Source: Parvibaculum sp. (GTDB lineage: Bacteria > Pseudomonadota > Alphaproteobacteria > Parvibaculales > Parvibaculaceae). Taken from it: 64,000 nt of DNA. Shown one piece after another: positions 11,945 through 41,004 of the stretch. Positions within the stretch are counted from its first letter, which is position 1, and each line of letters opens with the position of its first letter. The translations under genes and the position numbers were made by a program. The stretch is taken from contig JAUSMV010000030.1 in NCBI GenBank assembly GCA_030645235.1, forward strand, positions 1,484,988 to 1,548,987, in the 5' to 3' direction. Below the pieces are notes generated by a model. It had not been told where the DNA came from, made no database searches, and saw only the letters and a list, made by a program, of their open reading frames with translations.

Positions 11945-12397
11945 TCAGAGATAGGGTGCGCGGATAATCGCGAAAATGACGGCCATGCAACTCATAAGGA
12001 ATGCCAGTCCAAAAGGCACAATGGCGATCTGGATGAGTGCGCTCCAGCCCGAGACGGGGCCCGTCAGGGTGTCAAAATCGCCGTTCAGAAATTCTTCCAG
12101 TGTTCCTTGTGATGCATCCGGCGCGCGCGGCGGGGTCCGGCGGGCATTAAAGCTGTCGGCGGTGCGTTTCATCAGCCAGGGCGTGCCGAAAAAGGCGGCG
12201 AGAAAGACCATGTCAACGGTCAGCATGAAGGCCCCTTCGGCCTCGCCGCCGAAAGCCAGCCAAAAGGCCGCGAAGAGCCAGACCCAGGCAATGGCTGTCA
12301 CCGCATAGACGCGGGGGTGAAGGTCGGTTGTGACGGCGACATTGCCCCGATGAGCGCGTGCGTATCCGGCTTGCGGGCTTTCGACGTGCATATTCAT
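11945..12397 (-). CDS. Predicted three-helix membrane protein next to truncated haemoglobin
   Basis: A protein of 150 residues with three hydrophobic segments (roughly VYAVTAIAWVWLFAAFWLAF, FMLTVDMVFLAAFF, and IQIAIVPFGLAFLMSCMAVIFA near the C-terminus) and a cytosolic-looking Arg/Pro-rich loop between the second and third. The ATG at 12395-12397 is preceded by GGAGACTGAG and starts one base after the haemoglobin stop, so the two are almost certainly co-translated. I do not recognise the family. The context (NsrR operator, group III haemoglobin) suggests a membrane function in nitrosative stress or respiration, but that is inference. Confidence 0.75.
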   Translation of the reverse strand: MNMHVESPQAGYARAHRGNVAVTTDLHPRVYAVTAIAWVWLFAAFWLAFGGEAEGAFMLTVDMVFLAAFFGTPWLMKRTADSFNARRTPPRAPDASQGTLEEFLNGDFDTLTGPVSGWSALIQIAIVPFGLAFLMSCMAVIFAIIRAPYL

Positions 12398-12398
12398 C

Positions 12399-12872
12399 TC
12401 AGTCTCCTTCTTTCTTTGCGGCTTTCTTTGCGGCTTTCTTTGCGGCCTGAACGGATGCTGCGGGATTGAAGAACATGCCGAGTTTGAGGCTGTCGGCGAT
12501 GCGGCGGGCTTTTTCCAGAAAAGCGGCGGCGGTTTCGGGGGTGCAATTTCTTCGGGTGGCGGCTTCAAACAAAACGAGCCAACGGTCGAAATGATCGGGC
12601 CGGACCTGCTTCAGGCGCATATGCGCCACCATCGGCGCGCCCTTGTAGCGGCCCGACATCAGCATCACAGATGACCAGAAGGCGAACATCTTTTGCAGAT
12701 GCGGTTCCCAGTCTTCGCCGATCACGCGGGCAAATATCGGCCCCAGCATTTCATCGGCCCTGACATGCCCGTAAAAATCCCGCACCAGACGCTCGATTTC
12801 TGCTTCGTCTGTCAAAGGCGGCGGCAAAGGCCTTCTGCCGGAAACAGCGGTCTCATTTTCGATGGTCATCAT
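12399..12872 (-). CDS. Group III truncated haemoglobin
   Basis: A single-domain haem protein of 157 residues. The pattern fits group III truncated globins: IERLVRDFYGHVRADEMLGPIF, the DWEPHLQKMFAFWSSV helix, YKGAPMVAHMRL with the probable proximal His region, and HFDRWLVLF followed by ARRIADSLK. The tail is Ala/Lys-rich (KKAAKKAAKK). Family members are implicated in nitric oxide or oxygen chemistry. The gene is transcribed away from nsrR across a shared palindromic operator and is followed after one base by a membrane-protein gene. Two adjacent ATGs are possible starts. Confidence 0.9.
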   Translation of the reverse strand: MMTIENETAVSGRRPLPPPLTDEAEIERLVRDFYGHVRADEMLGPIFARVIGEDWEPHLQKMFAFWSSVMLMSGRYKGAPMVAHMRLKQVRPDHFDRWLVLFEAATRRNCTPETAAAFLEKARRIADSLKLGMFFNPAASVQAAKKAAKKAAKKEGD

Positions 12873-37465: not shown

Positions 37466-37538
37466 GGCCTAACGAATATAGGCAGGCGCAGAGCAATCGA
37501 AAAGGGGTCTCTTGCCACAAGGCATTAGTGATAAGTGC

Positions 37539-38168
37539 TCAGGCACCTGCATCACGCAACATTTGCGCAATTTCATCAAAATTGCGCTCCTCCGCCTCAT
37601 CAAGAGCCGTACGTCCGGTAATGTCCGTATCGGTTAAATCAACATTATGCGCGAGCAATTGCTGAACAATAGCGGCACGTCGCCCGCGTACCGCGATGAA
37701 GAGCGGGCTGTCGCCATTATCAGCAATGAGATCGGGGTTTGCTTTGGCATCAAGCAAAATAGCGGTGATCATCGCATTGCCCGATTGCGCGGCGGCTGAC
37801 AACGCTGTGCGGCCATCACGCGCCTTGCGATTGGGGTTAGCCCCCTGCTCCAGCAGAAACCGCACAGCGTCGGCTTGATTATTGGCCGCCGCCACAATGA
37901 TCGCAGGGACATATTCAACGCCGCCATCGTCCACGGGGATGCCACGCATCAGCGCATTGCGTATGCCCGCGATATTGCCAGTCCTCGCGGCTTCAACCAG
38001 CGAGTTATCAGGCAGTCTCATATTCTGACCAGGGAAAATTTCGTCGCCGAGTGCCCATACGGGCCCGGTACCGCCCCAAACCAGCATGAATGTCAGCGCC
38101 ACGGCAGACATCATCGCCTTTAAGCGCACTGCGCCTGCTTCTTTTGCCCGTGTCACTTGGTCACTCAT
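37539..38168 (-). CDS. Secreted ankyrin-repeat protein
   Basis: About 209 residues. After a hydrophobic segment (MMSAVALTFMLVWGGTGPVWALG) that acts as a signal sequence or anchor, there are four ankyrin-type repeats: NSLVEAARTGNIAGIRNALMRG, EYVPAIIVAAANNQADAVRFLLEQGAN, DGRTALSAAAQSG and NGDSPLFIAVRGRRAAIVQQLLAHN. They imply a protein-binding role in the periplasm. It is divergent from the SCO gene; the partner is unknown. Confidence 0.82.
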   Translation of the reverse strand: MSDQVTRAKEAGAVRLKAMMSAVALTFMLVWGGTGPVWALGDEIFPGQNMRLPDNSLVEAARTGNIAGIRNALMRGIPVDDGGVEYVPAIIVAAANNQADAVRFLLEQGANPNRKARDGRTALSAAAQSGNAMITAILLDAKANPDLIADNGDSPLFIAVRGRRAAIVQQLLAHNVDLTDTDITGRTALDEAEERNFDEIAQMLRDAGA

Positions 38169-38275
38169 CACTCGCCCTTTAGTCTAGTATTCTGTCTTGG
38201 TACGCCACGCCGCATCTTGCAGGATGTTATCCTATAGAACTCTTGTGGCAAAAAATTGCCCGAAACGAGGACATG

Positions 38276-38902
38276 ATGACACGCTACAACCCGCTGATCC
38301 TTGCCGCCGCTCTTGTGATTGCACTGATTGCCGGTGTCCTTTTGTGGCGGGCGGGCTCTGAACCGGTGACGGCAGGGTCTTCAGGCGAGGCAAGCAGCAG
38401 CGCGCAAGGTACGGGCATCGCCACGATCGGCGGACCTTTCACACTCACGGATGAGACCGGCCACGAGGTTACCGACGCTGATTTTACCGGCAAGTATATG
38501 CTGATCTATTTCGGTTTTACCTCCTGCCCCGATGTCTGTCCGACCGAGCTTCAGGCCATGACAACCGCCATCGATGCGCTGGGCGCGGCAGGCGACAATA
38601 TCCAGCCGGTCCTGGTTTCGGTTGATCCCGAACGCGACACGCCCGAAGTCCTTGCGCCTTACGTCAAGCAATTCAGCCCGCGCCTTAAAGGTCTCACCGG
38701 CACGCCCGACCAATTGGCCGCCGTCGCAAAGGAATACAAAGTCTTTTACGAGAAAGTCAAAGACGAGACGTCGAGCGATGACTACACGATGGACCATTCC
38801 TCCGTCGTCTATCTCATGGGTCCCGACGGCAAGTTTTTGACGTTTTTCGGCCCCGGCACAACGCCTGACAAAATGGCCGAAAAGATCAAAAGCCTGATGT
38901 GA
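38276..38902 (+). CDS. SCO1/SenC/PrrC-family copper chaperone
   Basis: A 208-residue membrane-anchored thioredoxin-fold protein. An N-terminal anchor helix (LILAAALVIALIAGVLLW) precedes the domain. The copper and redox site is FTSCPDVCPTEL (CxxxC), and the third ligand is the His of TMDHSSVVYL. In the family it loads copper into cytochrome c oxidase CuA. In Rhodobacter the homologue (PrrC/SenC) lies within the reg cluster; here it is about 2 kb from regB. The second of two adjacent ATGs has the better spacing to CGAGG. Confidence 0.92.
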   Translation: MTRYNPLILAAALVIALIAGVLLWRAGSEPVTAGSSGEASSSAQGTGIATIGGPFTLTDETGHEVTDADFTGKYMLIYFGFTSCPDVCPTELQAMTTAIDALGAAGDNIQPVLVSVDPERDTPEVLAPYVKQFSPRLKGLTGTPDQLAAVAKEYKVFYEKVKDETSSDDYTMDHSSVVYLMGPDGKFLTFFGPGTTPDKMAEKIKSLM

Positions 38903-38923
38903 GGTGCGAAAACGCGTCGCGCT

Positions 38924-38951
38924 TGACGGACGGACGCGTCGCCTCTAGTTT
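38924..38951 (+). promoter_or_regulatory. Promoter of the leu leader transcript
   Basis: TTGACG (38924-38929), 16-bp spacer, TAGTTT (38946-38951). The expected start falls at about the A of the leader ATG (38958), which would make the leader ORF leaderless. No Shine-Dalgarno sequence is present before that ATG. Confidence 0.5.
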
Positions 38952-38957
38952 CGTCTT

Positions 38958-39050
38958 ATGGATCATCAGACTGCATATGCCGCGCCGCGCGCCGCTCTGC
39001 TAAAGCTCAAACTGGCCCTTGGGCTAGAGCTTACGCTTCTTCGTGCCTGA
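38958..39050 (+). CDS. leuL: Leucine-rich leader peptide of leuA (attenuator)
   Basis: A 30-codon ORF encodes a peptide in which nine of residues 14-28 are leucine (LLKLKLALGLELTLL), using CTG, CTA, CTC and CTT. It ends about 265 bp upstream of leuA. Such a run is the hallmark of ribosome-mediated attenuation by charged tRNA-Leu. A hairpin CTTCGT/ACGAAG overlaps its end (about 39038-39055). A downstream attenuator is not certain: the best candidate is GGGCATG pairing with CATGGCCC before the T-run at 39183. Confidence 0.8.
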   Translation: MDHQTAYAAPRAALLKLKLALGLELTLLRA

Positions 39051-39315
39051 ACGAAGCCCCTGATCCGCTACCCTCTTCCTTTTCTCGTCCTTGACCGAAG
39101 CCCCGAAAACCCTCTATGGGCATGAGGCGCACACGTCCGAAATGACCTTAAAATGACCGCAAACTTCAACATGGCCCCGACCTTTTTGCTGACCCACTTC
39201 GGGATCAGCGGGCGACTTAAACCCGACTGCCGGACCTTGCGCCCGTGGCAGTCCGGCCGTCGCGTGTTTGGACAACACGTCTCCGCCACATATTTTTGAA
39301 ATTCTGGAGACCATC

Positions 39316-41004
39316 ATGTTGAAGACACCCTCAAGCAAATACCGTGCGTTCCCGCCCATCAATCTGCCGGACCGCCAATGGCCCAATAAAGTGCTGACCG
39401 CGCCGCCGATCTGGATGAGCACCGATCTGCGCGACGGCAACCAGTCGCTGTTTGAACCCATGAATGCGGACCGCAAGCTGCGCATGTGGGATCTGCTCAT
39501 CAAAATCGGCTTCAAAGAAATCGAAGCGGGATTCCCGTCCGCCTCGCAAACCGACTTTGATTTCATCCGCAAGCTCATCGAAGAGGATCGTATCCCGAAC
39601 GGTGTGCGCCTTGAGGTGCTGACGCAGGCGCGCGATGAACTCATCAAACGCACGATGGAGAGCCTCGTCGGTGCCAAAAGCGCCATCGTGCACCTCTATA
39701 ATGCGACCGCGCCCAATTTCCGCGAGACCGTTTTCGGCCTCGGCAAGCAGGGCGTCAAATCCATCGCAACGGAAAGCGCGAAGCTCATCAAAGAAATCGC
39801 GGCGACACAACCCAAAACCGAGTGGCGCTTTCAGTACAGCCCTGAAGTGTTCTCGGGCACCGAACTCGACTTTGCCAAGGAAGTCGTTGATGCGGTCAGT
39901 GAAATCTGGGACGCGCGGCCTGACAATAAGATGATCGTCAATCTGCCCGCGACGGTGGAAATGGCTTCGCCCAATGTCTATGCCGATCAGATCGAATGGA
40001 TGCACCGGAACCTCAAACGCCGCGACGGCATCATCCTGTCGCTGCATCCCCATAATGACCGCGGCACCGCCGTGGCCGCCGCCGAGCTTGGCTTCATGGC
40101 CGGTGCGGACCGCATTGAAGGCTGCCTGCTGTCAAACGGCGAGCGCACGGGCAATGTTGATCTCGTGACGCTGGCGCTCAATCTCTATTCGCAGGGCGTG
40201 GACCCCGGTCTCGACTTCTCGCAGATCAATGAGATGGCACGCACGGTTGAATATTGCACGCAACTGCCCACCCATCCGCGCCACCCCTATGTGGGCGATC
40301 TCGTGTTCACGGCTTTTTCAGGCTCGCATCAGGACGCGATCAAGAAGGGTCTCGCCGCACGCAAAGAGGGCGACATCTGGGAAGTGCCTTATCTGCCGCT
40401 TGATCCCGCTGATTTGGGCCGGACCTATGAAAGCATCATCCGCGTCAACAGCCAGTCAGGCAAAGGGGGGATTTCCTATCTTCTCGAAGCCGAATACGGG
40501 CTCGTGTTGCCGCGCCGGCTCCAGGTCGAGTTCTCGTCTGCTGTTCAGAAGGTAACAGATGACACAGGCAAAGAAGTCTCGGCTGCCGACATCTGGTCGA
40601 TCTTCGAGGCGGAATATCTCAAATCCGTGACGCCGCTCGAATATGTCGGCCACACGCTCTTTGATGAAGCGGGCAAGCAGGGCGTGAAGCTCCGCATACG
40701 GCGCTTTGGCAAAGATGAGGAACTGACAGGTCTCGGCAATGGTCCCATTGACGCTTTTATGAAGGCGCTCAATGTGCCCGTGCAGGTCCGCCATTATGAC
40801 GAACATTCGCTCGGTTCCGGCGCAGACGCACGCGCCGTCGCCTTTGTCGAGGTGGCTGAAACCGGTCAGGCCGGCGACGTCTATGGTGTCGGCATTGATC
40901 CCAATATCATCACGGCCTCCTTCAAGGCTGTGATCAGTGCGGCCAACCGTGCAGCACGGCGCCATTCATCCGCCGAGCAGCAGACGCTTTACAAGGGCGC
41001 GTAA
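39316..41004 (+). CDS. leuA: 2-Isopropylmalate synthase LeuA (long form)
   Basis: The first committed enzyme of leucine synthesis, 562 residues. This is the yeast/actinobacterial-like long class ([17 protein letters not shown] at the N-terminus). [13 protein letters not shown] carries the metal-binding Asp, [19 protein letters not shown] the His pair and [15 protein letters not shown] the substrate loop. A C-terminal regulatory domain (about 430-560) probably gives leucine feedback inhibition. The ATG at 39316 follows CTGGAGACC; an in-frame ATG 48 bases upstream lacks such a site. A Leu-rich leader peptide precedes it. Confidence 0.95.

Follow-up and report, generated by a model that had tools for sequence, protein, structure and literature searches.

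The leuA leader in the window

The window analyzed here, a stretch of 64,000 nucleotides from Parvibaculum sp., carries leuA at 39316..41004 on the forward strand, as it does all leader features described below. The gene encodes a long-form 2-isopropylmalate synthase (562 amino acids), which scored over the cut-offs of both PRK03739 and TIGR00970. Its leader starts with a predicted promoter at 38923..38951, composed of the -35 element TTGACG (38923-38928), a 17-nt spacer and the -10 element TAGTTT (38946-38951). The ATG of the first leader ORF (ORF1) follows 6 nt downstream of the -10 element, and transcription is therefore predicted to start approximately at the A of this ATG (38958). Searching the 3.83-Mb genome with the exact pattern TTGAC-N18-TANNNT-N6-ATG resulted in a single match, located at the leuA leader, and the backwards control gave none. 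A stricter mechanical promoter scan did not list the leader promoter; TAGTTT matches TATAAT at three of six positions and the threshold of the scan was four.

ORF1 (38958..39050, with the stop codon TGA at 39048-39050) is predicted to encode a leaderless leucine leader peptide of 30 codons with the sequence MDHQTAYAAPRAALLKLKLALGLELTLLRA. Nine leucines fall within 15 residues, and the leucine codons are CTT (four), CTG (two), CTA (two) and CTC (one). No Shine-Dalgarno (SD) sequence was found in front of ORF1 in the window. Among 959 ORFs of at least 20 amino acids in all six frames of the window, two reach nine leucines per 15 residues; the other one lies at 12317-12469 (..LSLLLSLRLSLRLSLRPERMLRD). 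Comparison with NCBIfam returned two dehydrogenase models for ORF1, both far under their cut-offs (E-values of 0.042 and 0.15), and no match for the second leader ORF (ORF2), which comprises 48 codons at 39153..39299. Together with a conserved RNA at 39225-39289, ORF2 occupies part of the 265 nt that separate the ORF1 stop codon from the leuA ATG at 39316.

Leucine ORFs with a leaderless arrangement precede leuA in many genomes

To prepare the comparison, we collected 105 leuA upstream regions of Alphaproteobacteria, of which 28 came from a search of the order and 77 from a set of 80 fetched regions (73 of 80 matches of the same class and seven further members of the window's family). Three entries (L002-L004) were left out because they repeat the records of L090, L099 and L107, and three more (L131, L170 and L181) because they had too little upstream sequence. 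The leuA considered here was present in 84 of the 289 genomes of the class. The genus itself was represented by 27 genomes, 22 of them with a usable leuA upstream region; L108, L109 and fragments of G019, G020 and G031:C60 lacked a usable leuA start, and G025 gave no match. In addition, we used the 77 loci nearest to the window outside the genus among the matches listed, which by their titles are mostly from Beta- and Gammaproteobacteria.

An ORF was counted as a predicted leaderless leucine ORF when it had 8–45 codons with at least three leucines and a promoter 5–9 nt before its ATG. Such an ORF was found in all 22 usable Parvibaculum loci (0–1 of 22 after shuffling) and in 49 of the 83 other alphaproteobacterial loci (0–2 in shuffles, none on the reverse strand). 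It was likewise present in 32 of the 77 listed non-genus loci, again with 0–2 in shuffles and none on the reverse strand. Shuffles here and below preserved the dinucleotide composition. In the genus, the end of the -10 element lies 5–9 nt ahead of the ATG in 22 of 22 loci, and 21 of the loci have an ORF that reaches six leucines per 15 residues. No SD match of three or more bases is seen at 15 of these 21. When ORFs were instead chosen by leucine content alone and then paired with their best promoter, the -10 element preceded the ATG by 6–7 nt in 12 of 14 Parvibaculum, four of seven other alphaproteobacterial and 21 of 27 beta- and gammaproteobacterial loci. The denominators are the loci with a promoter of at least eight matches; 38 beta- and gammaproteobacterial loci had an ORF of this kind. 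A like test detected no leaderless leader ORF before the trpE (G000:C58) and acetolactate synthase (G000:C55) genes of the genome to which the window belongs.

The first-pass annotation had described ORF1 as a 30-codon ORF with nine leucines in 15 residues, no SD sequence and a start 6 nt after TAGTTT, all of which we confirmed, and its proposal of a probably leaderless leucine leader peptide ahead of leuA is supported by the recurrence of this arrangement. The distance of about 265 nt between the ORF1 stop and leuA proved exact. Its view that this distance is longer than a simple attenuator needs is supported by the presence of ORF2 and a structured RNA in the span, neither of which it had noticed.

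Parvibaculum leaders are of two kinds. In the short kind (16 loci) 105–136 nt lie between the ORF1 stop and leuA, and in the long kind (six loci: L087, which is the window, L088, L089, L090, L091 and L112) 222–276 nt. The long element is thus absent from 16 of the 22 loci.

A second leader ORF carries the CGACTTA motif

ORF2 of the window reads in frame through the heptanucleotide CGACTTA at 39213..39219, which we call copy B, as Arg-CGA, Leu-CUU and a following A. Of the 105 alphaproteobacterial loci, 66 contain CGACTTA no more than 450 nt from leuA, compared with 0–6 in random copies drawn from a first-order Markov model, and is missing from the other 39; related genomes in these counts are not independent. 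In 31 loci, which represent 15 families, the motif is found twice, in two tandem ORFs. ORF1 of Parvibaculum does not contain it, and none of the 77 listed nearest non-genus loci, mostly beta- and gammaproteobacterial, has it within 450 nt. A longer pattern based on copy A, CTNCGACTTANCNNCCCGG, matched 10 times in 278 genomes, in every case no more than 400 nt upstream of leuA and on the leuA strand.

As the test for leaderless ORFs ignores CGACTTA, the ORFs it defines by their promoter allow a motif-independent view of codon choice. In the 44 of these ORFs with an Arg-Leu pair, arginine is encoded by CGA in 42 and leucine by CUU in 41; an A follows the pair in 36. Within the window, CGA accounts for 4.5% of the arginine codons of the genes.

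We then asked in which frame the motif is translated, using the 31 two-copy loci and the six long Parvibaculum loci (n = 37). An ATG that is open to the motif was found in frame in 33 loci and in the other two frames in three and seven; with GTG also allowed, the numbers are 37, 6 and 15. Counted by eye, the distances from the ORF2 ATG to the motif differ by multiples of three among the long-type loci. The end of ORF1, measured from the start of its motif, is equally regular, at 24 nt in 24 of the 31 two-copy loci, 12 nt in six and 27 nt in one. At its other end, the ORF2 stop codon overlaps the leuA start in four of the six long-type loci, and ORF2 of the window ends 16 nt before leuA. Both copies are followed by predicted hairpins, with a mean z of -1.95 after copy A (n = 31; 26 below -1) and -1.84 after copy B (n = 37; 27 below -1), and the sequence between the copies has a mean z of +0.52 (n = 30; none below -1).

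A conserved ORF2 peptide past the motif was considered for Parvibaculum and rejected. In the six differing pairs among eight compared, we counted 0–3 synonymous and 5–9 nonsynonymous codons. Third positions are not favored and the changes are mostly nonsynonymous, so this part of ORF2 is kept as RNA.

A predicted hairpin around the ORF1 stop codon precedes a C-rich stretch

The ORF1 stop codon of the window lies in a predicted hairpin, HP1, at 39035..39057 (z of -2.87; two of 200 shuffles equally stable). Each of the 22 genus loci has a predicted stem at the ORF1 stop, which belongs to the type CUGCGC/GCGCAG in 20 loci; in L101 the hairpin is longer. In the window the stem has been rebuilt with different bases, either GCUUC-UUC/GAA-GAAGC or CUUCGU/ACGAAG, so that the stem is kept while the peptide end shifts from LLCA, as in most Parvibaculum, to LLRA, as in the window and L101. 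The LLCA end is explained by the RNA hairpin that spans the stop codon, and we see no sign that the ORF1 peptide is selected or conserved beyond the bases that the hairpin imposes.

Directly after HP1, at 39057..39116, the leader has a C-rich, G-poor stretch with 27 C and 7 G in 60 nt, which resembles a Rho loading site. Its composition corresponds to the 99.97th percentile of the window when both strands are considered.

A conserved structured RNA lies before leuA

The RNA at 39225-39289 is common to the long-type Parvibaculum leaders and Betaproteobacteria. Stem 1 (39225..39261) pairs 39225-39235 with 39251-39261, with one mismatch in the window, and its loop (39236-39250) holds the sequence GUGGC. 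It is followed by HP3 (39263..39279; CGUGUU-UGGAC-AACACG), which pairs in six of six long-type loci. Two further interactions are predicted. In the sequestor (39279..39311), GUCUCC at 39279-39284 would pair with the leuA SD sequence GGAGAC at 39306-39311. A possible helix 2 (39245..39289), either a pseudoknot or a loop-loop contact, would join GUGG at 39245-39248 with CCAC at 39286-39289.

Across the six long-type loci, 98.4% of cells are paired when stem 1 (10 pairs counted), HP3 and the SD helix are taken together. Two of the stem 1 pairs are changed on both sides, and as many were found in 13 of 500 shuffles. We aligned 23 of 24 betaproteobacterial rows (L068 was omitted as a near copy of L065) with three of the six long-type Parvibaculum rows. 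Seven of the 11 stem 1 pairs are changed on both sides in this alignment, and 97.1% of all cells pair, compared with 27–59% in slid versions. The stem 1 covariation score (26 rows, 25 distinct) was reached by none of 500 shuffles. Helix 2 pairs in all 25 distinct rows; it hardly varies and shows no covariation, and its invariance is partly built in, as the betaproteobacterial rows were picked by a pattern requiring GTGG and GCCA. All 21 betaproteobacterial rows found by peptide alone lie within those picked by pattern. Scored locus by locus, the duplex energy of helix 2 was hardly above chance, with p ≤ 0.05 in two of 21 betaproteobacterial, none of six Parvibaculum and seven of 46 alphaproteobacterial rows (47 were given, 46 scored).

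The region 39213-39318 folds with a z of -2.73, and its minimum-energy form extends stem 1 at the expense of HP3. The leuA SD is predicted to be mostly paired in six of six long-type loci and in every state modeled, with an unpaired fraction of 0.02–0.24 in the free RNA and 0.00–0.30 with upstream ribosomes in place (highest in L112). Four of the six long-type loci fall in the lowest 10% of shuffles for SD accessibility. We did not find support for SD sequestration as a general output outside the long-type loci, as the same holds for one of 16 short-type Parvibaculum loci and 11 of the 66 other loci of the set.

Searches against Rfam 15 gave no match inside the leuA leader, neither for the window (37500-41000, E up to 5) nor for sets of 15 and nine loci (E up to 1); the few weak matches lay elsewhere. 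A model built from the RNA was searched against 398 genomes of the phylum and had a single match in each of four, always directly before leuA; these are the window's own genome, which is a training row, and three others. The filters of this search were strict, and it may miss weaker relatives.

Bases resembling CUUGCGCC hold their register in many Parvibaculum loci, and the series CUUGCGCC..GUGGC..GCCAC persists without stem 1 in some short leaders of the genus (L099, L100 and others), which look as if they were decayed versions of the long element. Past the ORF2 motif of L128/L136 and L113/L114, the loop and downstream sequences that could pair differ by family (GGCGGCCC/GGGCCGC and GGGAC/GUCCC; p of 0.03–0.15). 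The differing letters hint at a varying pseudoknot in some Alphaproteobacteria.

Betaproteobacteria have a related leader, and Parvibaculum leuA was probably acquired

Among the 77 listed loci, 21 (Betaproteobacteria) have a second ORF ending in ..GC[RQL].., and 11 of these also pass the test for a leaderless ORF1. Over the 12 codons before the end of the second ORF, CTA makes up 62 of 102 leucine codons. This end lies in RNA nearly identical to that of the window, as the comparison of GGTTGCCGGACCTAGCGTCCCGTGGCAGTCCGGCAGCC..GCCAC (L080) with GACTGCCGGACCTTGCGCCCGTGGCAGTCCGGCCGTC..GCCAC (window) illustrates. In most betaproteobacterial rows the ORF2 stop codon UAG is inside the stem 1 loop, after the CTA-rich codons.

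The nearest named genome by LeuA identity among the matches listed is an alphaproteobacterium, Parvibaculum sedimenti (81%). In a midpoint-rooted tree of 64 LeuA proteins, five Parvibaculum rows share a branch with 16 rows of Beta- and Gammaproteobacteria (support 100/99), and six rows from other genera of the same family group with 12 other Alphaproteobacteria (100/99). Four other alphaproteobacterial rows are also on the betaproteobacterial side. The grouping of the Parvibaculum proteins suggests that their leuA was most likely acquired, probably by horizontal transfer from a beta- or gammaproteobacterial relative. Since the structured RNA is shared with Betaproteobacteria, the leader probably came together with the gene. 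ORF2 of Parvibaculum carries CGACTTA, which none of the 77 listed loci has within 450 nt, and this points either to subsequent adaptation to the host or to an exchange with the resident leader.

A proposed two-step leucine sensor

Sequence comparison shows the arrangement of the leader, its conservation, stem 1 and the complementarity of the leuA SD to a conserved GUCUCC; we infer the leucine response and the mechanism. The reading we favor, and to which we give an even chance, is that the leuA leader forms a two-step leucine sensor read by ribosomes. A ribosome loaded at the 5′ ATG would gauge leucyl-tRNA on ORF1, and the outcome would set whether the transcript passes the C-rich stretch, probably in a Rho-dependent manner. 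A second ribosome would then gauge leucyl-tRNA when it reaches CUU in ORF2. If leucine is plentiful, this ribosome would pass CUU and stem 1 would fold behind it; the GUGGC in the loop of stem 1 could then contact the GCCAC that lies in the sequestor loop, and leuA translation would be held down. Without leucine, a ribosome stalled at CUU would cover the 5′ arm, keeping this brake weaker. As the predicted SD pairing persists with a ribosome set at CUU, the proposed switch would need the hypothetical contact between the loops. Also weighing against this reading are the two alternative pairings that were tried and found no support (see below), the lack of covariation in helix 2, an SD sequestration that is not general, the mostly nonsynonymous changes of ORF2 past the motif, and the loci without the long element (16 of 22 in the genus) or without CGACTTA (39 of 105). 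The opposite may also hold, with translation of ORF2 exposing the SD through coupling; a model with coupling only has the weakness that stalling at CUU would have an effect of the wrong sign.

Our estimate is slightly lower, a little short of even, that the scheme extends to Alpha- and Betaproteobacteria, in which leuA would be preceded by tandem leucine leaders acting as sensors in series, the first leaderless and the second with its end inside an RNA that is structured and probably pseudoknotted. The rare-codon motif CGA-CUU-A would mark both leaders in Alphaproteobacteria and also the second ORF of the acquired Parvibaculum leuA. If this is true, its occurrence in the acquired ORF2 would mean selection by the decoding machinery of the host.

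Other explanations of the leader

We regard it as unlikely, yet worth serious attention, that ORF1 is the sole sensor and acts through Rho, with ORF2 and the RNA merely tuning basal translation. In the presence of leucine, the ribosome would leave at the ORF1 stop and Rho would load on the C-rich stretch, whereas the transcription complex would escape when the ribosome stalls. This agrees with the extreme composition of the stretch in the window, with the excess of C over G after HP1 in 22 of 22 Parvibaculum loci (mean C minus G of 11.8 per 60 nt) and with the lack of a clear intrinsic terminator. Several other alphaproteobacterial groups, however, show little or no excess of C (-7 to 20 in the 31 two-copy loci), and the wide retention of ORF2 and CGACUUA would be left unexplained.

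We consider it improbable that a protein or a small molecule binds the RNA at 39225-39289 and that the ORFs are secondary. The strong conservation of the loop bases (CUUGCGCCCGUGGCA) between Parvibaculum and Betaproteobacteria would suit a bound RNA, but the loop of most betaproteobacterial rows, with the ORF2 stop UAG after CTA-rich codons, fits an element read by ribosomes better.

We rate a little lower still classical attenuation of the trp/leu type, in which ORF1 would act through a mutually exclusive antiterminator and intrinsic terminator. A leucine-rich ORF1 with its stop codon within a hairpin speaks for such an attenuator, and a looser test flagged one weak site in the window, CATATTTT at 39289-39296, 9 nt behind HP3, as well as GTGTTTCT behind stem 1 in L089-L091. 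More convincing terminators are present in a few relatives, L143 and L126. In L143 (G139), a strong hairpin followed by TTCTTTGC lies about 39 nt before leuA. Against this, the stricter scan detected no terminator-like site between ORF1 and leuA in the window, and the looser test showed no enrichment of such sites (52 of 105 loci compared with 56–63 after shuffling); a trp-type attenuator is therefore not supported. The first-pass annotation had proposed folding the leader RNA to look for competing hairpins. Neither of the two candidate alternative pairings that we tried is supported, although other pairings may exist. A common complement of CGACUUA, pairing alternately with copy A and copy B, reached p ≤ 0.05 in two of 31 loci for copy A and one of 31 for copy B, with a mean z of about 0, and a pairing between the HP1 3′ arm and a copy further downstream did so in none of 22. 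Control by Rho or at translation is likelier than a trp-type attenuator.

Very improbable is a released leader RNA or peptide acting in trans, as the first-pass annotation had proposed by analogy with rhizobial trpL: the analogy of the leaderless leader (PMC7298713) is its sole support, and against it stand the lack of a clear terminator to release the RNA (none in the stricter scan, no enrichment of sites in the looser test) and an ORF1 peptide that is not conserved beyond the part imposed by the hairpin.

Relation to known leaders

The leader of the enteric leu operon works by classical attenuation. It resembles the leader described here in having a leucine-rich ORF before leuA, but here we found no antiterminator/terminator pair and no SD before ORF1, and the leader has a second ORF and a covarying stem. 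The 2004 survey of proteobacterial attenuators by Vitreschak and colleagues may list some leuA leaders. Leader peptides are textbook regulators, and we know of no case of two acting in series at one gene. Among the open-access literature matches listed, a scope that leaves subscription papers mostly outside, there was no account of this leader. What appears new is the combination of a leaderless first leader with a second leader that ends in a covarying RNA outside the Rfam families, which suggests a new variant of leader-peptide control.

In the portion of the literature covered, the closest match in kind is the actinobacterial LEU element, for which protein binding has been suggested (PMC1262725). 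Both are leuA leaders with an upstream ORF of leucine codons, both involve the leuA SD and neither has a clear terminator (PMC1262725). Unlike the LEU element as outlined there, the leader described here has two ORFs, the first predicted to be leaderless (PMC1262725). A pseudoknot is predicted in the LEU element (PMC1262725), and here stem 1 covaries while helix 2 is nearly invariant with an energy close to chance. The base stem of the LEU element is formed by leucine codons with the SD (PMC1262725), whereas here the predicted SD partner is GUCUCC at 39279-39284. The LEU element is reported to lack conserved loop bases (PMC1262725), and here they are conserved.

The leaderless trpL of Sinorhizobium likewise has its leader ORF at the 5′ end of the transcript, a position that is predicted here (PMC7298713, PMC10117765). 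The leuA leader differs in its amino acid, leucine rather than tryptophan, in its second ORF and in having no clear intrinsic terminator, so that no released sRNA would be expected. The alphaproteobacterial odc1 and uORFC-8-2, the latter before cysS, are similar in placing an upstream ORF inside a structured leader RNA but concern other genes, and leuA is mentioned 0 times in the text of that paper as available (PMC8632094). For Caulobacter ilvBN, attenuation with a Rho-independent terminator is described (PMC4117421).

The leuA leader could serve as a natural system that combines leaderless initiation, codon choice and RNA folding, and small ORFs before leuA would be added to the annotation of many genomes. 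The codon choice itself differs between the groups, with CGA-CUU in Alphaproteobacteria and CUA in Betaproteobacteria.
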